From positions 3,224,001-3,288,000 of the forward strand of contig NZ_CP107575.1 of assembly GCF_025854375.1 (NCBI RefSeq): a stretch of 64,000 nt of DNA, read 5' to 3'. The notes beneath the pieces were generated by a model. That model was not told where the DNA came from, ran no database searches, and was given only the letters and a program-made list of their open reading frames with translations. Position numbers and translations under genes: made by a program. Each line of letters opens with the position of its first letter. Positions within the stretch are counted from its first letter, which is position 1. The stretch comes from Glutamicibacter sp. JL.03c (GTDB taxonomy: Bacteria; Actinomycetota; Actinomycetes; Actinomycetales; Micrococcaceae). This document shows positions 5,387 through 23,966 of this stretch, in pieces.

Positions 5387-6238
5387 CTACTTCATTTCCA
5401 GATCGCCGAGGGTTTCCGGGGAAATCACTCCGGCCTGGTCGAAGGCAGTGCGCAGCGTGCCGTCGTTTTGCGCTGATTGGATGGCAATGTTCAGCACCTG
5501 CAGCGAGCGGGCGTCGATGTTCTCGTTGACCCCGTAGTTCGAGTCCTGGACGAACAGCTCCGGCTTCGGCATCACGATCTTCAGCGACTTGTCCTGCTGG
5601 GCCGCGTTGGCAAGCGTCGGAAGGTCTGCGAAGACCGCGTTGGCACGGCCGGCCTTCATCGCGGTGACCGCCTGCGGAATGCTCTCCGACCCGACGACCT
5701 CGACCTTCAAGGCGGTAACGGCCCGTTCATAGGAAGTTCCCGTGGCCATGGCGACCTTCCCCGCCTTGACAATGTCGTCGGTGGTTTTCAGGCCCGAATC
5801 TTCCCGGACCAGCCAGGCGCCTTCGTAGCGGTAGACCGGGACGGTGAATTGGATAGCCAGGGACCGCTCGGACGTCGAGTCGAGGTAGGCGGCCACATCG
5901 AAGCGATCGGCCTGCAGGCCGGCGACCATCTTGCTCCATTCGGCGGCCACCGGCACATACTTCACGCCCATTTCCTTGGCGAGCTTCTGCAGCGGCGCCA
6001 CGTTCGGTCCGCCCATGGTGCCATCAGGCTGCTCCGCGGTCATCGGCGGTGCCGAGGCGATGCCCACGCGCAGTTCGCCGCGTTCGCGGATCTTCTGCAG
6101 CCAGGCGCCTTCGGCGGTAGCAGCAGCACCGCTCACGCTCCCCCCGCCCCCACGCAGGCCGGCACCGAAGTAGCCGCCGATCAGGCCGACGACGACCACC
6201 AGCACGATGGATAGTACGACTTTGCTTGTCTTAGTCAT
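5387..6238 (-). CDS. Amino-acid ABC transporter substrate-binding protein
   Basis: This 283-residue periplasmic-binding-protein-type-2 receptor starts at 'MTKTSKVVL' with a hydrophobic segment (about residues 7-27). There is no lipobox cysteine, so it is held by an uncleaved anchor or released by signal peptidase I rather than being a lipoprotein. The SBP_bac_3 fold is shown by 'RGELRVGIASAPPMT', 'DVAAYLDSTSERSLAI' and 'GKVAMATGTSYE'. It is the first gene of the seven-gene operon. A possible further N-terminal start at 6265 would add nine residues. The start used here is preceded by AGGGAAACATC. Substrate inferred from operon: hydroxyproline. Confidence 0.92.
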   Translation of the reverse strand: MTKTSKVVLSIVLVVVVGLIGGYFGAGLRGGGGSVSGAAATAEGAWLQKIRERGELRVGIASAPPMTAEQPDGTMGGPNVAPLQKLAKEMGVKYVPVAAEWSKMVAGLQADRFDVAAYLDSTSERSLAIQFTVPVYRYEGAWLVREDSGLKTTDDIVKAGKVAMATGTSYERAVTALKVEVVGSESIPQAVTAMKAGRANAVFADLPTLANAAQQDKSLKIVMPKPELFVQDSNYGVNENIDARSLQVLNIAIQSAQNDGTLRTAFDQAGVISPETLGDLEMK

Positions 6239-6379
6239 GATGTTTCCCTGGCAAATCAGTGGCACGCAGAAAACCCTTCAGAAGATTCCGAACGAGCTGC
6301 ATCCCTAGCTATTGCGTCTGCATCTTTGCAGACTCCAGACCATTCAATGGCAATCAAATCACTTCCATTCAGATTGAAT

Positions 6380-6394
6380 GATTGTCAAACAATC
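6380..6394. promoter_or_regulatory. Candidate GntR operator upstream of hydroxyproline operon
   Basis: GATTGT-CAA-ACAATC is a perfect 6+6 dyad about 140 bases upstream of the binding-protein start. An almost identical dyad (ATTGT-CTG-ACAAT) lies before the adjacent GntR gene at 7922. TTGTNNNACAA-like sites are usual for FadR-subfamily GntR proteins. Binding by the neighbouring GntR is inferred. Confidence 0.65.
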
Positions 6395-6553
6395 TGACGT
6401 TGCTATCGAGCATAGCTCGTGATCTGGGCCACGTCTAGCCCCTCGCAAAGAAAGTCGAAAATTCTCCCGGTCCGGTCCCGGGACGGGCTGCATAGCCTCC
6501 CGTGCAGCGCACGCACCCGGCACCCATGCATCGAGCGGATTGTTTCCGGGCGC

Positions 6554-6581
6554 AAAAAAGGGCCACGGTAAACCGTGGCCC
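6554..6581 (-). terminator. Rho-independent terminator of the GntR-SDR unit
   Basis: On the minus strand a 9-bp perfect stem GGGCCACGG/CCGTGGCCC with a 4-base loop is followed by six Ts, starting about 20 bases after the SDR stop codon. Confidence 0.9.
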
Positions 6582-6600
6582 TTTCCGCTCAGGTGCGGCA

Positions 6601-7194
6601 TCAGCCGACGGTGAAAATCTTCCCCGTTTCAACGCCCTCGACCGAGCGCACGTAGGCGCGGCCAACCTGCTCGTCGGTCACCTGCTCAAAACCGGGGAAG
6701 GCGCTGTGATAGCCCGGGGCGCTTTGCAGCACACTGGGGCTCACCGCGTTGATGCGAAGCCCACGTGGCAGCTCAGCCGAGGCCGCCATGACAAATGATT
6801 CCAGCGCTCCATTGGCCGCCGACGACGCGACTCCGGTTCGTATTGGTTCCCTGGCCAAGATTCCAGAGGTGACGGTAAACGATCCACCTTCGGACAGGTG
6901 TTCCAGCCCCTGGCGCACCAACTCGATCTGGCCCAGCGCCTTGTCCGCGAAGCCGCCGAGGAAGTCATCACGGCTCAGCTGGTCCAGAGGCTTGAACGGG
7001 GCCTTTCCGGTGCAGGAAATCACTGCGTCCACGGTCCCAATTCGGGCATACATGCCGGCGATGGACTCTGGATCAGTCAGATCCACACTGATTTGCGAGC
7101 TCCGGGAAACCTGGAGCACCTCATGGCGTTGCGCCAGCTCACGAGCGACGACGCGGCCAATATGCCCGGTAGCTCCAACAACTAATATGCGCAC
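6601..7194 (-). CDS. Short-chain dehydrogenase-like protein without catalytic Tyr/Lys
   Basis: This 197-residue compact SDR begins with the Rossmann motif 'VVGATGHIG'. It has 'ISCTGKAPF' in place of NNAG and 'VTSGILAREPIR' at the catalytic serine strand. The following helix reads 'GVASSAANGALESF', where classical SDRs have Tyr-x3-Lys, so neither catalytic residue is visible. Short SDR-like proteins of this kind form a recognised group of unknown activity. The GTG start directly follows the TAA of the GntR gene with no base between, indicating coupled translation. It is next to the hydroxyproline operon and possibly co-regulated. Whether it is an enzyme or an NAD(P)-sensing accessory is unknown. 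Confidence 0.8.
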   Translation of the reverse strand: MRILVVGATGHIGRVVARELAQRHEVLQVSRSSQISVDLTDPESIAGMYARIGTVDAVISCTGKAPFKPLDQLSRDDFLGGFADKALGQIELVRQGLEHLSEGGSFTVTSGILAREPIRTGVASSAANGALESFVMAASAELPRGLRINAVSPSVLQSAPGYHSAFPGFEQVTDEQVGRAYVRSVEGVETGKIFTVG

Positions 7195-7839
7195 TTACGT
7201 TTTCTCCTTGTCGGTTAAAAGTTCCAGCAGTTCCTTGACGCTGTGCATGGTGTGCTCCTCCAGAGCCTCGCGTATGGCTTCGCGATCTCCCGAGCGCAGC
7301 ACGCCCATCAGCACTTCGTGCACATGATAGGCGCGCTCTGGATCCTGGCGAATCGCCTGGTCCTGCGCGAGTGCGATCGTCATGTGCGCCCTGGTCACGG
7401 GCCAGAGCTTGAGCAGCATGGCATTATCGGATCCTGCCCAGATGGATTCATGGAAGGCCAGGTGGCCCATGTGCTGGACAAACGGATCAGGGTCGAAAGC
7501 GTGCTTCTTGTACTGCCGCCACCCCTCCTCGACCTTGTTCCAGCGTTGCCCACTCTCGTCAGCAAGGATCCCGTCGATCGCCAAGGTATCCAGCGCCATG
7601 CGCGTCCTGGCCAGATCAATCAGCATGGAATCGTCCATGGATGCCACCCGCAGCCCTCGGTAGGGCTCCTGGATGACCAGCCCTTCTTGGACCACCTTAT
7701 TAAGCGCCTCGCGCACCGTCGGTCGGCTGACATTCAGCCATTCGGACATCTGCACTTCAGTCAGCTTTTCTCCGGGCTTGACCCTTCCCAAGACAATGGC
7801 CCGGCGAATTTCTGTCACCGCTGCATCACGACGAGACAT
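7195..7839 (-). CDS. GntR-family (FadR/VanR-type) transcriptional regulator
   Basis: This is a 214-residue regulator. An N-terminal winged helix shows 'AVTEIRRAIVLGRVKPGEKL' and the recognition region 'LNVSRPTVREALNKVVQEGL'. A C-terminal all-helical FCD ligand domain has the metal-site pattern 'FHESIW' and a late 'HEVLMGVLRSGDREAI'. The start is uncertain: this ATG lacks a clear Shine-Dalgarno, and a TTG at 7908 or a GTG in between would add up to 23 residues. Its own upstream dyad (7922) matches the one before the hydroxyproline operon, so it is the likely local repressor responding to hydroxyproline or an intermediate. Confidence 0.9.
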   Translation of the reverse strand: MSRRDAAVTEIRRAIVLGRVKPGEKLTEVQMSEWLNVSRPTVREALNKVVQEGLVIQEPYRGLRVASMDDSMLIDLARTRMALDTLAIDGILADESGQRWNKVEEGWRQYKKHAFDPDPFVQHMGHLAFHESIWAGSDNAMLLKLWPVTRAHMTIALAQDQAIRQDPERAYHVHEVLMGVLRSGDREAIREALEEHTMHSVKELLELLTDKEKT

Positions 7840-7921
7840 CGTAGCCACAGGCTCGAGCCCAGCTTGCGGTTGCAGATTGCCCGCGACTGATTTGACCACC
7901 AGAACCAACTTTCGATTGCAG

Positions 7922-7934
7922 ATTGTCTGACAAT
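7922..7934. promoter_or_regulatory. Candidate GntR autoregulatory operator
   Basis: ATTGT-CTG-ACAAT is a perfect 5+5 dyad just upstream of the GntR coding region. It matches the dyad at 6381-6393 except in the three centre bases. The pair suggests that one regulator controls its own gene and the hydroxyproline operon. Confidence 0.65.
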
Positions 7935-7939
7935 GCTAG

Positions 7940-8257
7940 TTGACCAAGGTCCAATGCGCAATAGGCACCGGGAATTCACTCGGGACCGCGCCAGTTGGAC
8001 TACGCGTCGAGAGCTTGCCAGGGTGGCCGAAGCGAGTTGCGATTGCCCCCGCTTCTGCCAGGTCTTGGCAGGTCCGGTGCTCTCATGCGGCATCGGCCCA
8101 CCCGCCCACCCCGGGGCGGCGAATTGGTTGCCCGCGAGCATGCAACACCGTCGCGCATGAGCTCCGCGTGGCATGACCGGCCATAATGCAGGCAGCCAGC
8201 CGGCCAGGCCCCGCGGTGCCGCAGCATTCCACGGGGCCTGGCCTGGCCACGGTGCAC
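7940..8257. other. Intergenic stretch with SDR terminator
   Basis: No gene can be supported in these 318 bases. Short open frames exist on both strands but lack family resemblance and good ribosome sites. The right part holds the hairpin at 8202-8243. Confidence 0.55.
8202..8243 (-). terminator. Hairpin terminator downstream of SDR gene
   Basis: A 12-bp perfect stem GGCCAGGCCCCG/CGGGGCCTGGCC with an 18-base loop lies 14 bases after the SDR stop (minus strand). The U-run is poor, so termination is inferred from position. Confidence 0.6.
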
Positions 8258-9046
8258 TCAGGAGAAATTGATGCCCCCGTCGATCAGCACCGTTTGCCCC
8301 GTCATGTGATCCGAATCCGGGCCGGCCAGATAGGACACCAGCTTCGCCACGTCCTGCGGCTCGGACACCCGGCCAGCCAGGATGTTGTCCACCTGGGCCC
8401 GCAGGGCGCTGCCGCGCGGGGTCCCGTCCCGGGCGGTCAACCGCTCGTCGATCAGATCCCACATCGCGGTCCCCACCACTCCCGGGGCGTAGGAATTGAC
8501 CGTGATGCGGTGCTTGGCGAATTCCATCGCGGCGGCCTGCGTCAGCCCGCGCACCGCCCACTTCGTGGCGGAATAGGACGCCAGGACCGGGAAGGGGCGG
8601 AAGGCCACAATGGAGGCCGCGCCGATGATCTTCCCGGCCGTGCCCTGCTCAATGAAGCGCTTGGCCGCCAGCTGGTAGGAGTAGAAAACACCCTTGATGT
8701 TCACATCCAGCATGCGGTCCAAGGCCTCGGGGGCTACATCGAGGATTTCATCAACCTGCGCGATGCCCGCATTGGCAACGAACACCGTCAGGTCCCCCAG
8801 CTCCCGGGTGCCTTCCTCGATCATCCGCTGCACGTCCTCGGGGTTCGACACATCCCCGGTGACCCCGACCGCGCGGCGCCCGCGCTCCTGGACGGCGGCG
8901 ATGACCGCAGCGATATTCTCCTGGGCGCCGGGAACGTCGGCGACGATGATGTCCTGCCCGTCCTCGGCCAGGCGCTCGGCGATAGCCCTGCCGATCCCCC
9001 GTCCCGCTCCGGTGATGAGTGCGACTCCTGCGGTGGATCCTGCCAT
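8258..9046 (-). CDS. SDR-family oxidoreductase (acetoin/diacetyl-reductase-like)
   Basis: This 262-residue classical short-chain dehydrogenase shows the cofactor motif 'TGAGRGIG' near the N-terminus, 'VANAGIA', the catalytic triad Ser/Tyr/Lys in 'AASIV...YSATK' and the C-terminal 'DHMTGQTVLIDGG'. The start at MAGSTAG is preceded by GGAGGAATCACC. A longer frame to 9079 is unlikely. The closest family impression is the BudC/diacetyl reductase group, but sugar or polyol dehydrogenases look alike. It is divergent from the GMC oxidoreductase operon and shares a 290-base promoter region with it, so both may act on one alcohol or sugar. Confidence 0.9.
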   Translation of the reverse strand: MAGSTAGVALITGAGRGIGRAIAERLAEDGQDIIVADVPGAQENIAAVIAAVQERGRRAVGVTGDVSNPEDVQRMIEEGTRELGDLTVFVANAGIAQVDEILDVAPEALDRMLDVNIKGVFYSYQLAAKRFIEQGTAGKIIGAASIVAFRPFPVLASYSATKWAVRGLTQAAAMEFAKHRITVNSYAPGVVGTAMWDLIDERLTARDGTPRGSALRAQVDNILAGRVSEPQDVAKLVSYLAGPDSDHMTGQTVLIDGGINFS

Positions 9047-9148
9047 GGTGATTCCTCCTGGTAGCTGTTGCCCGGTCATCCCGGCAGGCGGTGCGCCCGC
9101 CCGGGTCTGCCCAGCTTGTCCCCGGCCCGGCCACCGGGCCTAGCCCCG

Positions 9149-9165
9149 TTCTCGCACAGCGAGAA
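9149..9165. promoter_or_regulatory. Dyad in the divergent SDR/GMC promoter region
   Basis: TTCTCG-CACAG-CGAGAA is a perfect 6+6 dyad with five-base centre, about 100 bases from the SDR start and 170 from the GMC operon start. The spacing resembles the dyad at 12823 (TTATCG-N5-CGATAA). An IclR regulator gene follows the operon. Binding is speculative. Confidence 0.4.
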
Positions 9166-9336
9166 TGCCCGCTTCCGCGATGCGGCGCAGGGCACCGGGG
9201 CATTCTCACCAGCCGATAACGGCACTGGCGGCACTGTGACGCACGCTACAGAATCCTGTTAAGGCCCCACGTCCCGATCCGGCCGGATCCAAGGGCGGCA
9301 GGCCGAGCAGACCGTCTACTAATCGAGGTGACAACA

Positions 9337-9915
9337 ATGGTGTTCCCCGCGAAATACTCATCCCTGAACGCCCTGGAACTTTCCGACGAGGCCCGGCAGA
9401 TACTCACCCGGATCATCCGGGTGTCCTTTCCGCATGCCAGCTTCCCGGACGGCCCCTACGAGCGCATGAGCGAGAAGATCATCGAGGCTTCCGCGGAATC
9501 CAGCTGGTTCCGCATGGCCCTGGCCCAGGGGTTGATGACCCTGGATACGCTCAGCGACGAGCATTTCCTGGACCTTCCCGATGACCGGGCGCTGGCGGTG
9601 CTCAAGCGCATCGCGGATCTGGAATTCTTCGCCTTCATCCGCCGCACCGTGGTGCTCAACCTCTACGACGACCCCGAAGTCCAGCAGGCCCTGGGCTATG
9701 AGGGCGAGTCCTTCTCCAAGGGCGGCTACCTGCACCGCGGCTTCAACGATCTTCGCTGGCTGCCCGAGCCGCGCATCGAGGAAAGCGCCGAACCGGTCCC
9801 GGATCTGGGCCCGCTGCCCTACACCGTCCAGGCCTATGCGCCGGAGGCCGCCACCGCGCCCGTTCAGAACATCCTCGGCGATTCAGGAATCGTGCAGGAA
9901 GGAAGCACCCGATGA
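9337..9915 (+). CDS. Gluconate 2-dehydrogenase subunit 3-like protein
   Basis: This 192-residue protein of the family that partners GMC-type FAD dehydrogenases resembles gluconate 2-dehydrogenase subunit 3. It has the helical 'LSDEARQILTRIIRVSFPH' and 'GGYLHRGFNDLRWLPEP' region. The start is ATG after GAGGTGACAACA; an upstream GTG at 9328 is less likely. No Tat signal is visible, unlike many subunit 3 proteins. It overlaps the GMC gene by ATGA, so the two subunits are made together. The role is inferred as stabilising or targeting the catalytic subunit. Confidence 0.8.
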   Translation: MVFPAKYSSLNALELSDEARQILTRIIRVSFPHASFPDGPYERMSEKIIEASAESSWFRMALAQGLMTLDTLSDEHFLDLPDDRALAVLKRIADLEFFAFIRRTVVLNLYDDPEVQQALGYEGESFSKGGYLHRGFNDLRWLPEPRIEESAEPVPDLGPLPYTVQAYAPEAATAPVQNILGDSGIVQEGSTR

Positions 9916-11498
9916 GCAACGAAGCACTCTCAGCAACCCACGACCAGGATGACGACTCGGTCGTCGTGGTCATCGGTTCCGGCGCCGGCGGAGGAACGCT
10001 GGCCCACGAGCTGGTCACCAAGGGGGTCAAGGTGGTCCTGCTGGAGGCCGGCCCCTACCTGAAGAACGAGGATTACCACCAGGACGAGTGGGCCGCCTTC
10101 AACCAGATGGCCTGGCTCGATCCGCGCACCACCTCCGGGTCGTGGCGCATCGCCCGCGACTTCCCCAACCTGCCGGCCTGGATCGTCAAGGCGGTCGGCG
10201 GCACCACCACGCACTGGTCGGGAGCCACCCCGCGCTTCAAGGCGCATGAGTTCAAGGCCCGCAGCACCTACGGCCACATCGACGGGGCGAACCTGCTGGA
10301 CTGGCCGCTGGGATTGGAGGACCTCGCGCCCTACTATGATCTCGCCGAGAAGAAGATGGGCAGCACCCACCGCCACGGTCGCCCGGCCCTGCCGGCGAAC
10401 AACAACTACAAGGTGCTGGCCAACGGGGCCGACCGGGTGGGCTACCGGCACTACGCCACCGGCCCCTACGCCACGAATGCCGAACCCTATGACGGGCGGC
10501 CGGCCTCCATCCAGGACGGCTTCAATTTCCAGGGCGACAAGAACAAGTCCAAATGGTCCACGATGGTCTCGGAAATCCCGAAGTCCCTGCGCACCGGTTT
10601 GCTCGATCTGCGCCCCGAATCCCATGCGATCCAGGTCACGCATACCGCGGCCGGGCTCGTCGACGGGGTCATCTACATTGATGCCGACGGGAACGCGCAG
10701 CGGCAGAAGGCCCGCGTGGTGGCGGTGGCCGGGAACTCCATCGAGACCCCGCGCCTGCTGATGCTCTCGGCCTCCCCGCTCTTCCCCGACGGGCTGGCGA
10801 ATTCCTCGGGGCACTTGGGGCGCAACTACATGCGCCACACCACCGGCAGCGTGTATGCGAAGTTCGACCAGCCGGTGAACATGCACCGCGGCGAAACCAT
10901 GGCCGGGCTGATCGCCGACGAATCCCGGCATGATCCCGAGCGCGGTTTCTGCGGCGGCTACTACATGGAAACGATCGCACTGGGACCGGCCTTCCTGGCC
11001 AGCTTCGTGGAACCCGGCGGGTGGGGCCCGGACTTCACCGCGCTGCTCGATGGCTACCTGAACACCGCGGGGCTGTGGATCACCGGGGAGGACATGCCGC
11101 AGGAGGGCAACCGGATCACGCTGAACACCACGGTCACCGACCGCCTGGGGCTGCCGGTGCCGAACGTGCATTTTGACGACCACCCCAACGACGCGGCCAT
11201 GCGCGCGCACGGCTACCAGCAGGGCTCGTTGCTCTTCGACGCGGTGGGGGCGCGCTCCACGCACCATACCCCGCCCTACCCCTCGACGCACAACCTGGGC
11301 ACCGCCCGCATGAGCGAGCGGCCCGAGGACGGGGTGCTCAACTCGTTCGGGCAGGCCCATGATGTGCCGAACCTGTTCATCGCCGACGGTTCGCAATTCA
11401 CCACCGGGGCCGCGGCGAACCCGACCCTGACCATCGTGGCGCTGGCCATCCGGCAGGCGCAGTACCTCATCGAGCAGATGGCGCAGGGCAGGCTGTAG
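9912..11498 (+). CDS. GMC-family FAD oxidoreductase (alcohol/sugar dehydrogenase)
   Basis: This 528-residue glucose-methanol-choline oxidoreductase has the FAD motif 'VIGSGAGGGTLAHEL' at about residues 18-32, 'GGTTTHWSG' in the flavin region, the C-terminal His in 'THNLGTARM' and 'FTTGAAANPTLTIVALAIR'. With the preceding small subunit it resembles gluconate/sugar-alcohol dehydrogenase large subunits rather than single-chain choline dehydrogenase. The electron acceptor is not encoded nearby (no cytochrome c subunit). Neighbours are an SDR, an IclR regulator and an ABM monooxygenase, pointing to an inducible oxidative pathway of unknown substrate. Confidence 0.88.
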   Translation: MSNEALSATHDQDDDSVVVVIGSGAGGGTLAHELVTKGVKVVLLEAGPYLKNEDYHQDEWAAFNQMAWLDPRTTSGSWRIARDFPNLPAWIVKAVGGTTTHWSGATPRFKAHEFKARSTYGHIDGANLLDWPLGLEDLAPYYDLAEKKMGSTHRHGRPALPANNNYKVLANGADRVGYRHYATGPYATNAEPYDGRPASIQDGFNFQGDKNKSKWSTMVSEIPKSLRTGLLDLRPESHAIQVTHTAAGLVDGVIYIDADGNAQRQKARVVAVAGNSIETPRLLMLSASPLFPDGLANSSGHLGRNYMRHTTGSVYAKFDQPVNMHRGETMAGLIADESRHDPERGFCGGYYMETIALGPAFLASFVEPGGWGPDFTALLDGYLNTAGLWITGEDMPQEGNRITLNTTVTDRLGLPVPNVHFDDHPNDAAMRAHGYQQGSLLFDAVGARSTHHTPPYPSTHNLGTARMSERPEDGVLNSFGQAHDVPNLFIADGSQFTTGAAANPTLTIVALAIRQAQYLIEQMAQGRL

Positions 11499-11517
11499 GC
11501 CCGTGCGGGGCAGCTGG

Positions 11518-12318
11518 CTACCCGGCGCCGCCGGCGTCGAGCAGCGAGGTACCCCGCAGCGCGCGGCTGACCCTGGAGGCCACGTCGCGCAGCAGCAGCG
11601 CCACCTCGAGGTGGCGCTGCTGGAATTCGGCCGGATCCATGGACACGGCCACCGACCCGACGACCTGGCCGGCCGGGGTGGTCACCGGGGCGGCCAGGCA
11701 CGAGGCCCCGCGGATGAACTCCTCGCGCTCGATGGCCAGGCCCTCGGCGCGCACCGCGGCCAGTTCCGTGGCGAAACGCTCCGGGTCGCAGATGGTCGCC
11801 GAAGTCATGGAGGGCATGCCGTGCTTCTGAAGGTAGCCCTGGCGGCGCTCGGCCTCCATGGCCGCCAACAGCACCTTGCCGAAGGCCGTGGCGTGGGCCG
11901 CGTCATTGAAGCCGAAGCCCATCGGGGTGATGCGCGGGCGGTTCGGGGATTCGACCACATGGGCCACGACGATGTCCTCGCCGCGGTGCACCGCATAGTA
12001 GGCGGCCGCATCGGCCCGCTGATGCAATTCGCGGATGAGCCGGGCCACCGCCGGCGGGGTGCCGACCTGGCGGCGCAGCGAGGTATCCAGGGCATGCAGC
12101 TTGTAGCCCAGCGCGTACAGGCCCTCCTCGCGCAGGTGCACCACGTGCCCGGAGAGCGTCAGCGTCTTGAGCAGGCGGTAGACGGTGGGCAGGGGCATCG
12201 CCAGTTCGCTGGCAATCTCCTTCGCGGCCAGGCCCCGGCGGTGGGCCGCCACCACGTCGAGCAGGGCGAAGGCCTTCTGCACCGAGGCCAGGCCGGCGAG
12301 CGAATCGTTATATCCCAT
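11518..12318 (-). CDS. IclR-family transcriptional regulator
   Basis: This 266-residue IclR protein has an N-terminal winged helix with 'ASVQKAFALLDVVAAH', recognition segment 'LAMPLPTVYRLLKTL' and a C-terminal GAF-like effector domain with 'AHATAFGKVLLA' and 'GASCLAAPV'. ATG 12318 gives the usual family length. A frame to 12405 would add 29 residues without a clear ribosome site. It converges on the GMC gene, their stops being 20 bases apart, and is followed upstream by the ABM gene. Regulation of the SDR/GMC cluster is inferred. Confidence 0.9.
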   Translation of the reverse strand: MGYNDSLAGLASVQKAFALLDVVAAHRRGLAAKEIASELAMPLPTVYRLLKTLTLSGHVVHLREEGLYALGYKLHALDTSLRRQVGTPPAVARLIRELHQRADAAAYYAVHRGEDIVVAHVVESPNRPRITPMGFGFNDAAHATAFGKVLLAAMEAERRQGYLQKHGMPSMTSATICDPERFATELAAVRAEGLAIEREEFIRGASCLAAPVTTPAGQVVGSVAVSMDPAEFQQRHLEVALLLRDVASRVSRALRGTSLLDAGGAG

Positions 12319-12414
12319 GCCACCATCTTGTCGACGGGGACCGGCAGATTCAACCTGTGTCCTGCCCGTTTCGGGCCCCGGAGCCGTGTCAAGGGCGTCA
12401 GCCATGCTGCCGGG

Positions 12415-12735
12415 CTAGTCGATTTCCAGCTCGCCCATGCGGTCCCAGGCATCGCCCTCGATCTGCCGGCTGATGATCCGCGGGGTCTCCCGCAACGCCG
12501 GGGCCATGTCGAGCATCGCCTGCTTGAAGTGGGCGCTGTTCACGTGCGCCGCCGCGGCATCATCGGCGAACGCTTCCACCAGGACGTACTCGTCAGGATC
12601 CTGCAGGCTGCGCGACCAGTCGAACCACAGGTTGCCCGGCTCGTTGCGCGTGGCCTCGGTGAACGGCCTGACCAGTTCCTCCCAGCCTTCCGCGGCCTCG
12701 GATTTCACATGGAATTTGACGACAATGAAGTACAC
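12415..12735 (-). CDS. Antibiotic biosynthesis monooxygenase (ABM/YgiN-like) domain protein
   Basis: This 106-residue single-domain ABM protein of the YgiN quinol-monooxygenase type shows 'FIVVKFHVKSEAAEGWEEL', 'NEPGNLWFDWSRSLQDP' and 'YVLVEAFADDAAAAHVNS', the canonical ferredoxin-like repeat. GTG 12735 is chosen because AAGGATACCCTC lies directly before it; frames reaching 12816 have no such signal. These cofactor-free enzymes oxidise quinols or aldehydes, or serve in small-molecule turnover. It is 97 bases upstream of the IclR start and may be co-transcribed with it. Confidence 0.85.
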   Translation of the reverse strand: MYFIVVKFHVKSEAAEGWEELVRPFTEATRNEPGNLWFDWSRSLQDPDEYVLVEAFADDAAAAHVNSAHFKQAMLDMAPALRETPRIISRQIEGDAWDRMGELEID

Positions 12736-12822
12736 GAGGGTATCCTTCCACAGCATGTTCTCCCTGCGGCAGCAGGGCCTGGTGCCAGTCTCCCGTGGCG
12801 CACCGGGCCCCGCCAAGACGCA

Positions 12823-12839
12823 TTATCGGCAGGCGATAA
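12823..12839. promoter_or_regulatory. Dyad upstream of ABM gene, possible IclR operator
   Basis: TTATCG-GCAGG-CGATAA is a perfect 6+6 dyad 88 bases upstream of the ABM start, between it and the end of the CNNM gene. Length and spacing suit an IclR dimer, and CGATAA recurs once at 9214-9219 near the SDR/GMC promoters. Confidence 0.45.
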
Positions 12840-12856
12840 CGCCGGCGCCGCGGGCG

Positions 12857-13897
12857 CTAGGTGCCCGCGGGCTCGTCCCTGATCTGGCCGACCAGCTCGG
12901 CGAGCAGGTCCTCCAGGGTCACCATGCCGTGCACCGCGCCCGTGGCGCGCTCGCGCACCAGGGCCAGGTGGGCTCCGCCCAGCTGCATTTCGCGCAACGC
13001 GGTGCGCACGCTCTGCTGCGGCTCGAAGGAGGGCAGCGCGCGGACCAGGCTGCGCGGCAGCGGCCTGGATCGCTCCGCCGCCTCGACGCCAAGCACGTCC
13101 TTGACGTGGACATAGCCCACCGGGGTGCGATCGGGCCGGAGCAGCGGGAACCTCGAGAAGCCGCGGGCGGCCGCCGCCTCGATCTGCTCCGGGGTGCAGT
13201 GCTCGGGTAGCGTCTGGACGGCATCGAAGCTGATCGCCACCGATTCGATGCTGCGCGCATCGAAGTGCAGCGCTCCCAAGAGCAACTGCTCATCCTGGGC
13301 ATCGAGGATGCCGCCTTCCCGGGATTCGGCCACCATGGACGAGACCTCATCACGGGTGAACGTGCTGGCCACCTCGTTCTTCGGCGCGACGCCGAAGATC
13401 CGCAGCACCAGATTGCCCATCGCATTCATCAGCCACAGCAGCGGGCGCAGCAGGCGCACCACCAGGACCATGCTCGGGCCCAGGATCAGCGCCATGCGTC
13501 CCGGGCCGGCCAGGGCAATGTTCTTGGGCACCATTTCGGCGAGCACCACATGCAGGTAGGTCACCAGCACCAGCGCGATGGCGTAGGACAGCGCGTCGAT
13601 CAGGCCCGCGGGGACACCCAGGGCCTCGAAGGGACCGGCCACCGCGTATTTCACCAGCGGCTTGGTGACATAGCCAAGCGCCAGCGAGCAGACGGTGATG
13701 CCCAGCTGCGCACCGGCCATCACCAGGGAGACATTCTCGATGGCCCACAGCGTCGCCTTGGCGCTGCGGCTGCCGGCCACGGCCTTCGGCTCGATGATGC
13801 TTCGGCGCGCGGAGATCAGCGCGAATTCGGCGCCGACAAAATAGAAGTTCGCTGCGAGCAGCACTATCGTGGCAAGGATGCCCAGCAGATCGCTCAT
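12857..13897 (-). CDS. CNNM/CorC-like membrane transporter protein (second of pair)
   Basis: This 346-residue protein has the CNNM (DUF21) transmembrane domain in its N-terminal half, with about four segments and the conserved 'LAEMVPKNIALAGP' motif. A tandem CBS region follows with 'GFSRFPLLRPDRTPVGYVHVKDV' and ends in 'HGMVTLEDLLAELVGQIRDE'. It lacks the C-terminal CorC_HlyC domain of its neighbour. Family members (CorB/CorC, MpfA, CNNM) are linked to Mg2+ or Co2+ efflux. Its ATG overlaps the upstream stop (ATGA), so the two proteins are probably made together and may form a heterodimer. Confidence 0.92.
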   Translation of the reverse strand: MSDLLGILATIVLLAANFYFVGAEFALISARRSIIEPKAVAGSRSAKATLWAIENVSLVMAGAQLGITVCSLALGYVTKPLVKYAVAGPFEALGVPAGLIDALSYAIALVLVTYLHVVLAEMVPKNIALAGPGRMALILGPSMVLVVRLLRPLLWLMNAMGNLVLRIFGVAPKNEVASTFTRDEVSSMVAESREGGILDAQDEQLLLGALHFDARSIESVAISFDAVQTLPEHCTPEQIEAAAARGFSRFPLLRPDRTPVGYVHVKDVLGVEAAERSRPLPRSLVRALPSFEPQQSVRTALREMQLGGAHLALVRERATGAVHGMVTLEDLLAELVGQIRDEPAGT

Positions 13898-15240
13898 CGC
13901 GCCAGCTCCCCTTCATCAAGTTCGGATACGGCCACGTCAACGGTGGCGATGCGCTGCCCCTCGGTGGCGTGGATGCGGAAGACCAGCTGCTTGCGCGGCG
14001 CACCGGGCAGGCCCGGCACCACGAGGCTGATCTCGTCGCCGACTGCGCCGAAGGCACCGAGCTGCACGGTCAGCAGGCCGGCCAGCGTCTCGTAGTCCGG
14101 CCCCTGCGGGATCTGGCAGCCCAGCACCTCGCCGGCTTCATCCGGGCGCAGGGCCGCGTCCAGCCGCCAGCTGTTCTCGGAGAGCGGCTGCACCGGGGTG
14201 CCGGTGGCATCGTGCTCGTCGCGCACTTCCCCGACGATCTCCTCGACGAGGTCCTCCAGGGTCAGCATCCCGGCCACATCCCCGGTCTCGTCGATCAGCA
14301 CCGCCAGCTGCAGCCCGTCGCCGCGCAGCTGGTCCATCAGCTCATCGAGCTCGATGGTGTCCGGGACCAGGCGGGCCCGCTGGGCGTAGCCGCCCACGGG
14401 GGTGTGCCGGCGCTGCTCATGGGGAACAGGCAACAGGCTGCGGATATGGACCAGGCCGCTCACCTGGTGTCCCGACCCGTCAACCAGCGGGAAGCGCGAA
14501 TGCCCGGTGCGTGCGGCCAGCTGCAGCACCTCATGCACGGAGTGCTGCGCTGTAACGGTGACCATCCTGGCTCTAGGGGTCATCGCGTCCCGCCCGCGGC
14601 GGTGCCCGAAGGCCACGGTCCGGCGCAGCATCTCGGCGGTTTCCGAGGGCAGCACCCCTTGGCGGGCGGAGTGCCCGGCGAGCGCGACCAGTTCCTCGGC
14701 GGAGCGGGCCGAGGCCAGCTCTTCCTGCGGCTCGATGCCGAAGCGGCGGATGATCCAGTTGGCGTTGCCGTTGAAGAAGGCGAGGAAGGGCTTGGTCGCG
14801 GCGCTGAAGCCGCGCTGGAAGCCCACCACGGCCTTGGCCGTTTCGAAGGGCTTGGCGATGGCCAGGTTCTTGGGGACCAGTTCGCCGAACACCATGGTCA
14901 GGACGGTGGCCAGCACCAATGCCAGGGCGATGGAAACCGACCGGGCGGCGGCCTCGCCGAGCCCGGCCTGCTGCAGTGGTCCGGATACGAGCGCCGCGAT
15001 GGCCGGTTCGGCCAGGAAGCCGATGCCCAGGTTGGTCAATGTGATGCCCAGCTGGGCTCCGGAGAGCTGGGTGGACAAGGTGCCCATGCCCTTGAGCACG
15101 CCGGCCGCACGGCGGTCGCCGCGTTGCGCGGCGTCTTTCACCTGGTTGCGGTTAACCGTGATCAGCGAGAATTCGGCCGCGACGAACAGTGCGCAGCCCA
15201 GAATGAGGAGCAGCGCCAGGAGCAGCGAGAACCATTGCAT
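13894..15240 (-). CDS. CNNM/CorC-like membrane transporter protein (first of pair)
   Basis: This is a 448-residue protein. The DUF21 transmembrane domain (about 1-200) includes 'FGELVPKNLAIAKP'. The CBS pair (about 210-340) includes 'HSRFPLVDGSGHQVSGLVHI' and 'DVAGMLTLEDLVEEIVGEVRDE'. The CorC_HlyC C-terminal domain starts near 'WRLDAALRPDEAGEVLGCQIP'. Full family length. It is translationally coupled to the downstream paralogue by ATGA. Probable role: divalent cation (magnesium or cobalt) export or homeostasis; the old 'hemolysin' label is not supported by anything here. Confidence 0.93.
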   Translation of the reverse strand: MQWFSLLLALLLILGCALFVAAEFSLITVNRNQVKDAAQRGDRRAAGVLKGMGTLSTQLSGAQLGITLTNLGIGFLAEPAIAALVSGPLQQAGLGEAAARSVSIALALVLATVLTMVFGELVPKNLAIAKPFETAKAVVGFQRGFSAATKPFLAFFNGNANWIIRRFGIEPQEELASARSAEELVALAGHSARQGVLPSETAEMLRRTVAFGHRRGRDAMTPRARMVTVTAQHSVHEVLQLAARTGHSRFPLVDGSGHQVSGLVHIRSLLPVPHEQRRHTPVGGYAQRARLVPDTIELDELMDQLRGDGLQLAVLIDETGDVAGMLTLEDLVEEIVGEVRDEHDATGTPVQPLSENSWRLDAALRPDEAGEVLGCQIPQGPDYETLAGLLTVQLGAFGAVGDEISLVVPGLPGAPRKQLVFRIHATEGQRIATVDVAVSELDEGELAR

Positions 15241-18366: not shown

Positions 18367-19068
18367 CTAGCGATCAAGCACAAAGGTGTTCAGGTCATCC
18401 AGGGTCTGTTGCATATGCTCGTCCATGGCCTCGCGCGCGCTGGAGCTGTTGCGCAGCGACAGGGCCCGGAGGATTTGTTCGTGCTCGTGAATCGCGTGTT
18501 CCTGGATCTGCGGGAAGGCGCTGGTTTCGCGCCGGCGCGAGGAGAGCACTCGCCCCAAGGGCTCGTAGAGCGCAGAGACGAAAACATTGCCCGAGGCGTG
18601 CAAGATGATGTCGTGGAACCCCAGATCGGCATCCACGAATCGGTCCAGGTCTCCGGCTGCATGAGCCTCGCGCATGGTTTCGAGCAGTACGCCCATGTGC
18701 TCGAGCTGCTCATCGGTGATTCGTGCCGCAGCCAATTCGCAGGCGCCGGTCTCCAGCATGCGGCGCAGTTCAATGAGCTGGACCGCTGCAGCGGCAGCGC
18801 CCACCCCCGCTGTGGTGGCACGAACCACGGCCTCCAGCGAATTCCACATGTTGATCGGATTCACATAGGTTCCGCGCCCGCGCTCAATGCGAATGATGTT
18901 CTGGGCGGCCAAGGTCTTGATCGCTTCGCGCACCGTCATCCGGCTGACTTCCAGGGTGTCGCAAAGTTCCAATTCTCCCGGAATCATCTGGTCAACCGAT
19001 AGCTCCCCGCTGACGATGCGGTCAAGCACGCTATCGACGACCTGTACCACCAGTGATTTCCGCGCCAC
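18367..19068 (-). CDS. GntR-family (FadR/FCD) regulator of the acid-sugar operon
   Basis: This 233-residue regulator has an N-terminal winged helix ('LELCDTLEVSRMTVREAIKTL', with wing 'IRIERGRGTYV') and an FCD domain with the metal-binding pattern from 'DADLGFHDIILHASGN' through 'HEQILRAL'. The GTG start is preferred because GCTGGAGGAATC lies just before it; an ATG nine codons upstream lacks such a site. It is divergent from the kinase operon, and a perfect dyad lies in the spacer between likely promoter elements of that operon. It is therefore the probable repressor, released by an acid sugar or its phosphate. Confidence 0.92.
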   Translation of the reverse strand: MARKSLVVQVVDSVLDRIVSGELSVDQMIPGELELCDTLEVSRMTVREAIKTLAAQNIIRIERGRGTYVNPINMWNSLEAVVRATTAGVGAAAAAVQLIELRRMLETGACELAAARITDEQLEHMGVLLETMREAHAAGDLDRFVDADLGFHDIILHASGNVFVSALYEPLGRVLSSRRRETSAFPQIQEHAIHEHEQILRALSLRNSSSAREAMDEHMQQTLDDLNTFVLDR

Positions 19069-19165
19069 GATTCCTCCAGCTTTGGGATGATCCATCCTCT
19101 TCGAGACTTGTCCAGTCTATGTCCCCGAACGGCTTGCGGCGGACAGTGATCCATGCGACACTAAA

Positions 19166-19194
19166 TTGCACACCAGATGTCTGACATCTTACCT
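19166..19194 (+). promoter_or_regulatory. Predicted promoter of the acid-sugar operon
   Basis: TTGCAC, 17 bases, TTACCT, followed by the kinase start 42 bases on. The -10 is weak. The regulator dyad fills the spacer. Confidence 0.4.
19175..19189. promoter_or_regulatory. Candidate GntR operator in acid-sugar promoter
   Basis: AGATGT-CTG-ACATCT is a perfect 6+6 dyad in the 168-base region between the divergent GntR and kinase genes. Its TGTCTGACA core resembles the ATTGTCTGACAAT site at 7922 but has different flanks, as expected for a related but distinct FCD-type GntR. Confidence 0.7.
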
Positions 19195-19236
19195 GTGAAA
19201 TTGATGGGTTGCCCAATGACAAAGGAGTCCTTGTTC

Positions 19237-20685
19237 ATGCTTGAGTCCGATTTGCTCGCCGGATACCTTCCGGAGCGAGACATGGCCCCCGCGCAGATCG
19301 CCGCGGCGGCACGTGCCACCGGACGAGTGCTGGTGGTCCTCGATGACGATCCCACCGGAACGCAGTCGGTCAGCAACCTGCCGGTGCTCACTGCCTGGGA
19401 AGTCGAAGATTTCCGGTGGGCCTTCGGCCTGGAACTCGACGGCGAGCGCCCGCTGGCCGTCTACGTCCTGACCAATACCCGCTCCCTGGACGCCTCCGAT
19501 GCCGCCGTCCGCAATGAGCAGGTAGCCCGCGCCGCCCTGCAAGCTGCCAGCGAAGCGGGAATTTCCGTATCCTTCGTCAGCCGCAGCGACTCCACCCTCC
19601 GCGGGCATTTCCCGTTGGAAACCGACACCCTGGCCGCGACCGTGGCCGCAGTGGATCCCAACGAAGCAGTGGATGCCATCCTGATGGTTCCCGCGTTCGG
19701 CGAAGCCGGCCGGATCACCGTGGCCGGCGAGCACTACATGCGCAGCGGCAAGGGCGAGCTGGCCAAGGTCAGCGACACCGAATTCGCCAAAGACGCCACC
19801 TTCGGATTCAGCACCAGCTACCTGCCGGACTACGTCGCCGAGAAGACCGGCGGCCGCAAAGCCGCCGAGGATGTGATGGTCTTGGATCTGAACACCATCC
19901 GCGCTGGCGCTTCGTCCATCGCCGGCACACTGGCCCAGGCATCCAACGCACAGGTGGCCACCGCAGATATCGTCACGGAAAACGACCTCCTGGCACTGGC
20001 CGAGGGGCTGCAGCTGGCCGAAGCATCTGGCACCCGGGTGCTGTGCCGTGTGGGCCCGCCCTTCATGCGTGCGCGCATCGGCCAAGAGCAGCGCGAGCCG
20101 CTCACCGCCGAAGAAATCTTTGCGGACAACGGCTCCGAGCAGCGGACCGCGGGCGGGCTGATCGTGGTCGGATCCCACGTCGGAGTGACCACCCGCCAGC
20201 TGGCTGACCTCACCGCGGTGCATTCGAACGCCACGGTCTTCGAGCTGGACGTGCCCACCATCCTCGCGGAGGAAAGCGAAGCCTATATCTCCTCCAAGGT
20301 GGCGCAGATCGGACAGGCCCTGGCCACCGGCGACGTCATCGTGCACACCTCGCGCACGCTGGTGAAGACCGAGGATGCCGCCCAGTCCCTGGATATCGCC
20401 CGGACCGTGAGCGCCGCAGTGGTCGCCGTGGTCAACCGGACCCTGCATGCTAATCCGCCGCGCTTCGTGATCGCCAAGGGCGGGATCACCTCGTCGGACG
20501 TCGCGGCCTTCGGCCTGGAAATGCGCCATGCAATCGTGCGCGGGTCCATGCTCCCGGGCATCGTCTCGCTCTGGGAATCCGTGGATGGACCGGCCGCCGG
20601 CATCCCGTACATCGTCTTCGCCGGCAATGTGGGCGATGACAGCTCGCTCACCGCTGTCACCCGCAAGCTGAGCGCCACCTTCTAA
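19237..20685 (+). CDS. DUF1537-family four-carbon acid sugar kinase
   Basis: This 482-residue kinase of the family formerly called DUF1537 (OtnK/DtnK) phosphorylates four-carbon acid sugars. The N-terminal substrate domain shows 'VLVVLDDDPTGTQS' and 'YVLTNTRSLD'. The C-terminal nucleotide domain shows 'FVIAKGGITSSDVA' and 'GSMLPGIVSLWES', followed by 'FAGNVGD'. The start is placed at MLESDLL because AAAGGAG lies nine bases before it. The longer frame from 19177 would begin inside the operator. It is the first gene of an operon with a dehydrogenase, permease and aldolase. Substrate (3-oxotetronate, threonate or a related acid) is not determined by sequence. Confidence 0.92.
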   Translation: MLESDLLAGYLPERDMAPAQIAAAARATGRVLVVLDDDPTGTQSVSNLPVLTAWEVEDFRWAFGLELDGERPLAVYVLTNTRSLDASDAAVRNEQVARAALQAASEAGISVSFVSRSDSTLRGHFPLETDTLAATVAAVDPNEAVDAILMVPAFGEAGRITVAGEHYMRSGKGELAKVSDTEFAKDATFGFSTSYLPDYVAEKTGGRKAAEDVMVLDLNTIRAGASSIAGTLAQASNAQVATADIVTENDLLALAEGLQLAEASGTRVLCRVGPPFMRARIGQEQREPLTAEEIFADNGSEQRTAGGLIVVGSHVGVTTRQLADLTAVHSNATVFELDVPTILAEESEAYISSKVAQIGQALATGDVIVHTSRTLVKTEDAAQSLDIARTVSAAVVAVVNRTLHANPPRFVIAKGGITSSDVAAFGLEMRHAIVRGSMLPGIVSLWESVDGPAAGIPYIVFAGNVGDDSSLTAVTRKLSATF

Positions 20686-20713
20686 TCACCACCCGAACCT
20701 TTTGGAGCATTAA

Positions 20714-21607
20714 ATGAACACCACCGCAGTTGCCGTTCTGGGCCTGGGAGCCATGGGCCTGCCCATGGCCACCCGCCTGGCGGCCAAGTTTTCCGTCCAC
20801 GGCTTCGACATCAGCACCGACCGCATGGAGCTGGCCAGCAAAGCCGGCATTGCCACCTTTACTAGCGCCCGCGATGCCGTGGCCGGCGCCGACGCGCTGA
20901 TCCTGGCTGTGCGCAATGGCGAGCAACTGAACGCCGTGCTCTTCGGCGATCACGGCGTGGCCCAGCACCTGAAGTCCGGTGCCGTGGTCATCCTGACCTC
21001 CACCGTTGGGCTGGATGCCGTACCGGCCACCGCCGCCCGACTGGGCGAGCTGGGCGTGGGCCTGGTGGATGCGCCGCTCTCCGGCGGCCCGGTGCGCGCT
21101 GGCGAAGGCGACCTGCTGATCGTAGTCGGCGCCGAACCTGAACAGCTGGCCAAGGTCCGCCCGGTGCTGGACCAGCTGGCCTCCACCTTGAGCATCGTGG
21201 GCGACAAGCCAGGTGATGGCCAGGCGCTGAAGACCGTGAACCAGCTGCTGTGCGGCGTGCATATCGCCGCCGCCGCCGAGGCGCTGGCCCTGGCGGACCA
21301 GCTTGGCCTGGACCAGGCCACCACCCTGGATGCCTTGCAGGCCGGCGCCGCCGGCTCCTTCATGCTCGGCAACCGCGGGCCGCGCATGCTCGAGGCCTAC
21401 ACCGAAGAAGGCGCCGAGGTGCTTTCACGGCTGGATATCTTCGTGAAGGACCTGGGGATCGTGACCACGGCGGCCCGCGCGCTGCATCTGGCTACCCCGG
21501 TGGCTTCCGCCGCGGAGCAGCTCTTCCTGCTGGGCGAAGCCCACGGGCTGGCCGCAGCCGACGATTCAGCGCTCATCAAGGTCGTCGCGCCGGAAACCGG
21601 CAACTAA
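20714..21607 (+). CDS. Beta-hydroxyacid dehydrogenase family (L-threonate/tartronate-like)
   Basis: This 297-residue NAD(P)-dependent 3-hydroxyisobutyrate dehydrogenase-family protein has the Rossmann motif 'VLGLGAMGLPMATRL', the catalytic strand 'LVDAPLSGGPVRAGEGDL' and the active-site lysine in 'GDGQALKTVNQLL'. LtnD-type L-threonate 2-dehydrogenases belong to this group and commonly neighbour DUF1537 kinases, so oxidation of an aldonate before phosphorylation is the inferred step. It follows the kinase by 28 bases with a GGAG site. Confidence 0.9.
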   Translation: MNTTAVAVLGLGAMGLPMATRLAAKFSVHGFDISTDRMELASKAGIATFTSARDAVAGADALILAVRNGEQLNAVLFGDHGVAQHLKSGAVVILTSTVGLDAVPATAARLGELGVGLVDAPLSGGPVRAGEGDLLIVVGAEPEQLAKVRPVLDQLASTLSIVGDKPGDGQALKTVNQLLCGVHIAAAAEALALADQLGLDQATTLDALQAGAAGSFMLGNRGPRMLEAYTEEGAEVLSRLDIFVKDLGIVTTAARALHLATPVASAAEQLFLLGEAHGLAAADDSALIKVVAPETGN

Positions 21608-21664
21608 CCTCATCATCGCGCGGGCTAAACCCCCGCTGGCAACGTCAAAGGAGACGAAACTGTC

Positions 21665-23053
21665 ATGAGCCCGATTATGCTCCTGCTGATCGCTGCGGCC
21701 GCCGTGGCCCTGCTGTTGGTCGGCGTCATCAAATTCAAGATGCCGGCATTCATTACCCTGTTGCTGGTCAGCATCCTCGTGGCTCTGGCCGCGGGCATCC
21801 CCATCCAGGATGTGGCCGGCCTGGTCACCACCGGCATGGGCGGCACGCTGGGCAGCGTGGCCGTGCTGGTGGGCCTGGGCGCCATGCTCGGCAAGGTCAT
21901 CGAGATCTCTGGCGGCGCCCAAGTGCTGTCCACCCGTTTCACCGCGCTCTTCGGCCCGCGCCGGGTAATCGCGGCGCTGACCACCGCCGCATTCCTGCTG
22001 GCCATCCCGGTTTTCTTCGACGTCGGATTCATCGTGCTGGTGCCGATCATCTACGGCTTCGCCAAGGCGCTGAACGTTTCCCCAGTGAAGATCGGCCTGC
22101 CCGTGGGCGCGATCATGCTGGCTATCCATGTGGTGGTTCCGCCGCATCCGGGCGTGGTTGGCGGCGCCCAGATCCTCGGCGCGGATATCGGCTGGGCCAC
22201 CATCTTGGGCCTGGCTTTCTGCGCCCCGCTGGGCGTGCTCGGCTTCTTCGTGGCCAAGCGCATCAACCGCCGCGAGATCCCGATGCTGCCCGAAACCCAG
22301 GAACAGTACGAATCCTTTGGTGCCAGCACGGACACTGGCAAGGGAAGCACCCTGGCCAAGACGAAGGCTCCGACCTCGGGCATGGTCATCTCGATGATCC
22401 TGCTGCCCATCGTGATGATCATGTTCGGCACCGTGGGCACCACCTTGGTTGACGCGGAATCCACCGCCGCCAACATCCTGGGCTTTGTCGGTTCGCCATC
22501 CATCGCCCTGCTGACCACCGTGCTGGTCTCCTACTACCTGCTGGGCGTGCGCAGCGGCTGGAGCAGCGAAAAGACCGGCAAGGTCATGGACTCGGCTCTG
22601 GCCCCAGCGGCCATCGTGATCCTGGTGACCGGTGCTGGCGGCGTCTTCGGCAAGGTGCTCACCGAATCGGGGATCGGCACGGTGCTGGCGCAATCCCTGG
22701 CATCAGCGGGCTTGCCGATCATTGTCATGGCCTTCATCCTGGCTTCCATCCTGCGTGCTTCGCAAGGTTCAGCCACGGTCGCAATCATCACCACCACAGG
22801 CCTGCTGGCTTCCGCGGTGGAAGCAGGCGATTACTCCCCCGTGCAGACCGCACTGATTCTCGCATCGGTCGGCTTTGGCGCCTTCGGCTTGAGCCATGTG
22901 AATGACTCGGGATTCTGGATCGTCACCCGCTTCCTGGGCCTGTCCGTGGCTGATGGTCTACGCACCTGGACGGTGCTGACCACCATCCTGGGCGTGGCCG
23001 GCTTCGCGCTCACCGCCCTTGTCTACTCCATCGTCACCGCGGCAGGAGCCTGA
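21665..23053 (+). CDS. GntP-family gluconate/acid-sugar:H+ symporter
   Basis: This 462-residue permease has about twelve hydrophobic segments and typical GntP features: an N-terminal 'IKFKMPAFITLLLVSILVAL', 'GGTLGSVAVLVGLGAMLGK', 'HVVVPPHPGVVGGAQILG' and 'LRASQGSATVAIITTTGL'. Full family length. In operon with the kinase and dehydrogenase it would import the acid sugar with protons. It is separated from the dehydrogenase by 57 bases and from the aldolase by only three bases. Confidence 0.95.
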   Translation: MSPIMLLLIAAAAVALLLVGVIKFKMPAFITLLLVSILVALAAGIPIQDVAGLVTTGMGGTLGSVAVLVGLGAMLGKVIEISGGAQVLSTRFTALFGPRRVIAALTTAAFLLAIPVFFDVGFIVLVPIIYGFAKALNVSPVKIGLPVGAIMLAIHVVVPPHPGVVGGAQILGADIGWATILGLAFCAPLGVLGFFVAKRINRREIPMLPETQEQYESFGASTDTGKGSTLAKTKAPTSGMVISMILLPIVMIMFGTVGTTLVDAESTAANILGFVGSPSIALLTTVLVSYYLLGVRSGWSSEKTGKVMDSALAPAAIVILVTGAGGVFGKVLTESGIGTVLAQSLASAGLPIIVMAFILASILRASQGSATVAIITTTGLLASAVEAGDYSPVQTALILASVGFGAFGLSHVNDSGFWIVTRFLGLSVADGLRTWTVLTTILGVAGFALTALVYSIVTAAGA

Positions 23054-23056
23054 TCC

Positions 23057-23896
23057 ATGCTCAAGCCAATGAACCAGATGGTCGCTGAGGCCATCGCCGC
23101 AGGCCACGCTGTTCCCGCGTTCACCTGCTACGACTTCACCACAGCCCTGGCCATGGTGGCCGAGGCCGAAGCGCAGCAGCGCGCGGTCATCCTGAACGTC
23201 GCGCCGAAAACTGCAGGCTCCGCCTCGGGCCTGAGGCTGATCACTGCCCTGCGCGCCCTGGGGGAGCAGGCCAGCATCCCGGTGGCGGTCCAGCTGGACC
23301 ATGCCAGTGACGAGCAGCTGATCGTGCGCGCAGTGCGCGCTGGTGCCACCGCGGTGCTGGCCGACGGCTCGGCTGGCACGCTGGAGGCAAATATCGCTTT
23401 CGTGCAGCAGGTGCGTTCATTGGTCGGGCCGGACATCGTCATGGAAGCGGAGCTGGGCGCACTTCCCGGTAACGAAGACAAGGCCTTTGAGCAGATGGCC
23501 TCGCAGCTGACCGACCCGGCACAAGTGGCCGGATTCCTGGCAGGCAGCGGCGCGGACCTGCTCGCGGTGGCCATTGGCAATGTCCACGGACGCTACAAGG
23601 GAGAGCCGAAAATCCATTGGGAGGTGCTAGAGGCCATACAGGCAGCATCCACGGTGCCGCTGGTGTTGCACGGTGCTTCGGGCATCGCCCCAGCTGATCT
23701 TTCGCGCACCATCGCGTACGGGGTGGGCAAGGTCAACCTGAATACCGAGCTGCGCACTGCGGTGCTCTCCACCCTGTCCGGACAGCTAGAGCCCCGCCGA
23801 GAAGACGGGCAGAATATGCTCGGCCTGCTGGGAGATTGGGAACGCGCAGCCACCGAGGTGGCCGCGGCAACCTTCACTGCCCTCGTAGCGAAGTAG
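23057..23896 (+). CDS. Class II fructose-bisphosphate aldolase family protein
   Basis: This 279-residue zinc-dependent aldolase of the FbaA/GatY/KbaY family shows an 'AVPAFTCYDF' N-terminal strand, 'VAVQLDHASDEQLIVRAV' with the catalytic Asp and first zinc His, 'EAELGALPGNED', 'VAIGNVHGRYKGEP' and 'LVLHGASGI' with the remaining zinc histidines. The 'GKVNLNTELR' phosphate loop is present. In this operon it probably cleaves a phosphorylated keto-acid sugar to pyruvate- or glycolate-type and triose-phosphate-type products. It is not the OtnC decarboxylase fold, nor PdxA, that usually follow DUF1537 kinases. Confidence 0.9.
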   Translation: MLKPMNQMVAEAIAAGHAVPAFTCYDFTTALAMVAEAEAQQRAVILNVAPKTAGSASGLRLITALRALGEQASIPVAVQLDHASDEQLIVRAVRAGATAVLADGSAGTLEANIAFVQQVRSLVGPDIVMEAELGALPGNEDKAFEQMASQLTDPAQVAGFLAGSGADLLAVAIGNVHGRYKGEPKIHWEVLEAIQAASTVPLVLHGASGIAPADLSRTIAYGVGKVNLNTELRTAVLSTLSGQLEPRREDGQNMLGLLGDWERAATEVAAATFTALVAK

Positions 23897-23926: not shown

Positions 23927-23966
23927 GAAAGCCAATCACGGCACCCGTCATCCGTGATTGGCTTTC
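23927..23966. terminator. Bidirectional terminator between aldolase and purU
   Basis: A 15-bp perfect stem GAAAGCCAATCACGG/CCGTGATTGGCTTTC with a 10-base loop lies between two convergent genes. A T/C-rich tail follows on the plus strand. Confidence 0.85.

Follow-up and report, generated by a model that had tools for sequence, protein, structure and literature searches.

L-Threonate is a breakdown product of vitamin C. A four-step L-threonate operon, ygbJKLMN, encoding LtnD, OtnI, 3-OtnK, and 3-OtnC, is said to have been described in Escherichia coli and its relatives by Zhang et al. in PNAS in 2016. A shorter, three-step L-threonate route, comprising LtnD, the DUF1537 kinase 2-OtnK, and 2-OtnC and lacking OtnI, was reported for Arthrobacter sp. 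ZBG10 (Guo et al. 2024, BBRC 695:149440, as presented by Yamamoto et al. 2025, PMC12540250). According to the account in PMC12540250, the ZBG10 route needs no isomerase and ends in dihydroxyacetone phosphate, and the last enzymes of the two routes belong to different domain families, the three-step 2-OtnC having an F_bP_aldolase domain and the four-step 3-OtnC an Aldolase_II domain. The same account describes the land-plant protein LTD (AT1G18270) as the same three enzymes in one fused protein and states that Arabidopsis L-threonate dehydrogenase activity depends on LTD.

Here we describe a locus of Glutamicibacter sp. JL.03c that we assign to the three-step L-threonate route because its enzyme families match the ZBG10 set, as given in PMC12540250, gene for gene. 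We put the probability that it is a GntR-controlled catabolic operon for L-threonate working by this route at about 0.86.

Organization of the operon

The locus lies in a 64,000-nucleotide stretch (the window; G000:C1:3224001-3288000) of a genome of 3.59 Mb assembled as a single contig, which was searched by family, by protein, and by pattern. Four genes, all open and on the same strand, encode a DUF1537 kinase, a dehydrogenase, a GntP permease, and a protein of the FBA/GatY fold, and a gene for a GntR/FCD regulator diverges from them. The features, in window coordinates, are as follows.

18367..19095, minus strand: GntR/FCD-family regulator (Pfam GntR, 66.6 bits; FCD, 96.7 bits)
19175..19189, strand not applicable: operator AGATGTC-T-GACATCT, a perfect 7+7 palindrome (inverted repeat just 5' of the kinase gene)
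19237..20685, plus strand: DUF1537 (SBD_N plus NBD_C) kinase, predicted 2-oxo-tetronate kinase (2-OtnK) (Pfam, 153.7 and 113.2 bits)
20714..21607, plus strand: beta-hydroxyacid dehydrogenase, predicted L-threonate 2-dehydrogenase (LtnD) (best NCBIfam model, NF043037)
21665..23053, plus strand: GntP-family permease of the YgbN type, predicted to take up L-threonate (NF007332)
23057..23896, plus strand: class II aldolase-fold enzyme, predicted 2-oxo-tetronate 4-phosphate decarboxylase (F_bP_aldolase-type 2-OtnC) (Pfam F_bP_aldolase, 216.7 bits)
23927..23966, plus strand: terminator-like hairpin of 15+15 bases with a 10-base loop (inverted repeat; folding z-score)

The Pfam domains of the four gene products (SBD_N and NBD_C, which make up DUF1537; NAD_binding_2 and NAD_binding_11; GntP_permease; and F_bP_aldolase) all scored well over their cut-offs. 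The initial annotation of this DNA had the coordinates and order of the genes right, including the kinase start at 19237, and was equally correct that an FBA-type aldolase gene follows the GntP permease gene by three bases (permease stop at 23053, aldolase ATG at 23057). The kinase start at 19237 is backed by a ribosome-binding site, AAAGGAG, at 19221-19227 and is a better choice than the mechanically called ORF start at 19177, an ATG that lies inside the operator palindrome. At the other end of the operon, the hairpin had a folding z-score of -4.06, and none of 200 shuffled sequences was equally stable; a consensus terminator scan missed it because its loop is 10 bases long.

Kinase, dehydrogenase, and permease

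The kinase has both DUF1537 domains and, as in a 2-OtnK, sits on a branch far from the 3-OtnK represented by E. coli YgbK: it is 52 to 86% identical to the kinases of complete cassettes of the same kind (described below), compared with 20% to YgbK and 22% to a DUF1537-PdxA fusion encoded elsewhere in the genome. Its N terminus reads LDDDPTGTQ, whereas the kinase of the E. coli ygbJKLMN operon has ADDFTGA. A search of the PDB by sequence gave no match to it at an E value of 0.001.

The dehydrogenase carries both of the domains typical of LtnD (NAD_binding_2 and NAD_binding_11). Its best NCBIfam model was that of L-threonate dehydrogenase (NF043037), with a score of 250 bits that lies below the model's cut-off of 350, and the next best model scored 171. 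It is 36% identical to E. coli YgbJ and mostly 68 to 86% identical to its counterparts in related cassettes. The permease scored 619 bits against NF007332, for which the cut-off is 524, and at 54% identity resembles E. coli YgbN, which belongs to the ygbJKLMN L-threonate operon. Both this dehydrogenase model and this resemblance to YgbN favor L-threonate as the probable substrate.

The aldolase-fold enzyme

The last enzyme of the operon has an F_bP_aldolase domain and not an Aldolase_II domain. Its AlphaFold model (pLDDT, 92.2) matched class II aldolases with Z scores of 34 to 35 over residues 1 to 277. Residues D81, H82, E132, H177, H205, S208, and N227 are invariant in the clade of cassette enzymes and in the sampled aldolases, and T230 is nearly so. 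We take D81, H82, E132, H177, and H205 to be the metal and catalytic residues of class II aldolases, and by alignment with GatY and KbaY, S208, N227, and T230 should presumably bind dihydroxyacetone phosphate at its phosphate end. In the cassette clade, Thr23 and Asp26 stand where the sampled FBA and GatY enzymes keep two asparagines. None of the GatY/KbaY/Fba equivalog cut-offs was reached by this enzyme (183 of 383 bits for GatY; 180 of 423 and 172 of 343 for the FBA models), and the database label "fructose-bisphosphate aldolase" is probably wrong for the cassette clade.

Regulator, operator, and the classic pathway enzymes

The GntR/FCD regulator adjoins the cassette in nearly all relatives, with identities of 51 to 85%, and is likely a substrate-responsive repressor. 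The palindrome AGATGTCTGACATCT 5' of the kinase gene is the sole site with zero or one mismatch in the 3.59-Mb genome; nine further genomic sites resemble it, all with two mismatches, and the backwards control sequence gave six. Nearly all cassette loci contain an exact match to the operator; the list runs to 50 loci, among which some are copies that overlap at a single place.

Two loci, L102 and L103, each have two exact operator copies approximately 0.9 kb apart, one adjoining the gene for the regulator and the other preceding that for the kinase.

By the Pfam domains of its genes, the operon encodes no OtnI, OtnC, or PdxA, as the initial annotation had stated, so that it has neither the OtnI and Aldolase_II-type OtnC of the four-step pathway nor the PdxA-type last enzyme of the DUF1537-PdxA2 D-threonate pathway. 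Family and protein searches of the whole genome found no dedicated OtnI or OtnC, and no OtnI, OtnC, or separate PdxA gene in the genome is under control of the operon's operator. The initial annotation had named OtnI or OtnC homologues elsewhere in the genome under the same GntR operator as the finding that would tell against its observation; since that operator occurs only once in the genome, the test comes out in favor of the observation.

The nearest OtnI-like protein in the genome shares 30% identity with E. coli YgbM, obtains a better score as a hydroxypyruvate isomerase, and is encoded alongside glyoxylate carboligase and tartronate semialdehyde reductase; as a member of a glyoxylate operon without the shared operator, it was rejected as the pathway isomerase. 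There are two Aldolase_II genes in the genome, both outside the operon. The best OtnC-like candidate was rejected as AraD (L-ribulose-5-phosphate 4-epimerase), encoded beside AraA (arabinose isomerase), and the second, weaker gene (G000:3417126-3417707; 67 bits) gave no match to the E. coli OtnC query. The only PdxA is part of a DUF1537-PdxA fusion of 770 residues located outside the window (G000:C1:3351029-3353341; L021:6030-8342), whose neighbors, read from their translations, are an oligopeptide-type ABC transporter and a DeoR-like regulator. This looks like a separate, D-threonate-type system with an unusual transporter.

Conservation of the cassette

The neighborhood analysis proposed in the initial annotation for kinase, dehydrogenase, GntP permease, and FBA-type enzyme showed that the linkage recurs in dozens of genomes, with the permease variable. 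When 197 Micrococcaceae genomes were searched for the aldolase, each of the 22 best matches (46 to 100% identity, window included) lay beside genes for the regulator, the kinase, and the dehydrogenase, and 21 of the 22 loci also had the permease. Weaker FBA paralogues begin below 40% after a gap in identity, and four of these that were sampled (35 to 36%) have no regulator, kinase, dehydrogenase, or permease as neighbors. The cassette and its operator are conserved across Micrococcaceae; in the named Arthrobacter and Pseudarthrobacter cassettes, the aldolase-fold enzyme is mostly 52 to 58% and the kinase mostly 56 to 63% identical to that of the window.

Wider relatives were collected with an alignment of the aldolase clade, as a single aldolase query of the genome collection gave none. 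Among 33 named loci at an identity of at least 49% (L078-L110), the kinase, dehydrogenase, and aldolase genes are adjacent in 30; L104 and L106 have the order regulator-dehydrogenase-aldolase, with a more distant kinase gene several kilobases away. In Streptomyces sp. SA15 (L118), the order is regulator-kinase-aldolase-dehydrogenase-permease. The cassette permeases vary in identity class and are absent from L059, L083, and L087, and we therefore regard the three enzymes as the constant core. Cyanobacterial and clostridial aldolases at 32 to 42% identity had no cassette partners within the sequence stretches examined and were not counted as members.

Several of these loci have peculiarities of their own. 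At L104 (Cryobacterium psychrotolerans, 5175-14262), the DUF1537 kinase gene is 5 kb off, together with genes for PdxA, a DeoR regulator, and an Asp/Glu racemase-like protein, and the cassette and the PdxA system may share one kinase. L110 (Leucobacter musarum, 3435-7756) encodes a GntR regulator, an MFS transporter, a divergent DUF1537 kinase (35%), and an aldolase-fold enzyme (52%), with no adjacent LtnD-like gene. The class II aldolases of L115 and L123 (Trichodesmium and Microseira; 35 to 37%) share the GNVHG motif with the cassette clade and have no dehydrogenase or kinase gene within the stretch examined.

Proposed pathway and alternatives

L-Threonate would be taken up by the YgbN-type permease and oxidized at C2 with NAD+ by the LtnD-like enzyme, giving 2-oxo-L-threonate, which the DUF1537 kinase would phosphorylate at O4, using ATP. 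From the resulting 2-oxo-tetronate 4-phosphate, the class II FBA-fold enzyme would then produce dihydroxyacetone phosphate and CO2. In this last step, an enediolate on the metal would plausibly allow the carbonyl to move from C2 to C3 before CO2 is lost, and that loss would leave the same metal-bound dihydroxyacetone phosphate enediolate that ordinary class II aldolases form. Until an inducer arrives, the operon is probably kept silent by the GntR/FCD protein acting from 19175-19189. The operon is predicted to let a soil-type actinobacterium feed on L-threonate.

The same chemistry could instead have as its physiological substrate another C4 acid such as D-erythronate, or L-threonate plus another acid. 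Stereochemistry is fixed neither by the regulator nor by the permease type and is not readable from sequence, and the title of Guo et al. 2024, as cited in PMC12540250, spans both L-threonate and D-erythronate pathways. We nevertheless consider this unlikely, since the dehydrogenase is clearly nearest the L-threonate dehydrogenase model and the permease is of a type that comes from an L-threonate operon. Somewhat less probable again is the idea that the clade enzyme acts on a substrate other than that of ZBG10 (another C4 acid or a branched one), with Thr23 and Asp26 serving a structurally undescribed isomerase-decarboxylase bifunction.

The initial annotation took the unusual last enzyme to suggest a different acid sugar or aldol cleavage, that is, a five- or six-carbon acid that is phosphorylated and then split by the FBA-like enzyme in a true retro-aldol reaction. 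In keeping with this reading, the enzyme retains the complete fold and metal site of class II aldolases, but the dehydrogenase and the permease indicate a C4 acid, the clade has Thr23 and Asp26 in place of the two asparagines kept in sampled class II aldolases, and we regard the reading as very improbable. For a C4 2-oxo acid 4-phosphate, retro-aldol cleavage is chemically impossible, because the compound's sole beta-oxygen is the phosphorylated terminal one and no free beta-hydroxyl is left. Nor is either suggestion needed, given that PMC12540250 reports the same enzyme set as the L-threonate route of ZBG10, in which one carbon is lost to give dihydroxyacetone phosphate. What stands of that interpretation is that OtnI is absent and the last enzyme differs from classic OtnC and PdxA2; it does not follow that the acid sugar is an unknown one or that aldol splitting takes place. 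Likewise, the OtnC and PdxA-type endings in its list of characterized DUF1537 routes are indeed absent here, but the list predates Guo et al. 2024, as described in PMC12540250. Finally, that the FBA-like gene is a stray that landed by chance at the 3' end of a DUF1537 operon, with the true isomerase and decarboxylase elsewhere, can practically be dismissed, for although a class II aldolase is a common enzyme and readily picked up, the linkage is kept in dozens of genomes despite changes of gene order or permease, and neither a second operator nor a dedicated OtnI or OtnC was found in the genome.

Comparison with known systems

The GatY/KbaY tagatose-bisphosphate aldolases and the class II fructose-bisphosphate aldolases share with the operon enzyme the fold, the metal ligands, and the residues on the dihydroxyacetone phosphate side. 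The operon enzyme, however, is only approximately 20 to 35% identical to their solved members, is found in another gene context, and has Thr23 and Asp26. The DUF1537-PdxA2 D-threonate route has a DUF1537 kinase in common with the operon but ends in a PdxA-type dehydrogenase. The E. coli ygbJKLMN operon has a homologous dehydrogenase (36%) and permease (54%) and also a DUF1537 kinase, whereas the Glutamicibacter operon lacks OtnI and its last enzyme is of the F_bP_aldolase fold and not Aldolase_II. Plant LTD resembles the operon, as judged from its description, in having LtnD, DUF1537 kinase, and F_bP_aldolase domains, but it is a single polypeptide with two LtnD domains and comes without a permease or a regulator.

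The closest counterpart is the ZBG10 pathway as described in PMC12540250, which has the same three enzyme families, an F_bP_aldolase-type last enzyme, and no isomerase, a likeness that is drawn from the description of domains. Arthrobacter sp. ZBG10 also belongs to Micrococcaceae, probably to a genus other than that of the window. Since the same three-enzyme route was published in 2024 for this related Arthrobacter, the operon is an ordinary representative and not a new pathway. The conservation described here widens the range of this short, recently reported route for a product of vitamin C breakdown to genomes across Micrococcaceae. A candidate regulator, a transporter, and an operator that is conserved are added to the account of the ZBG10 pathway in PMC12540250, which is given without regulator, operator, or permease.
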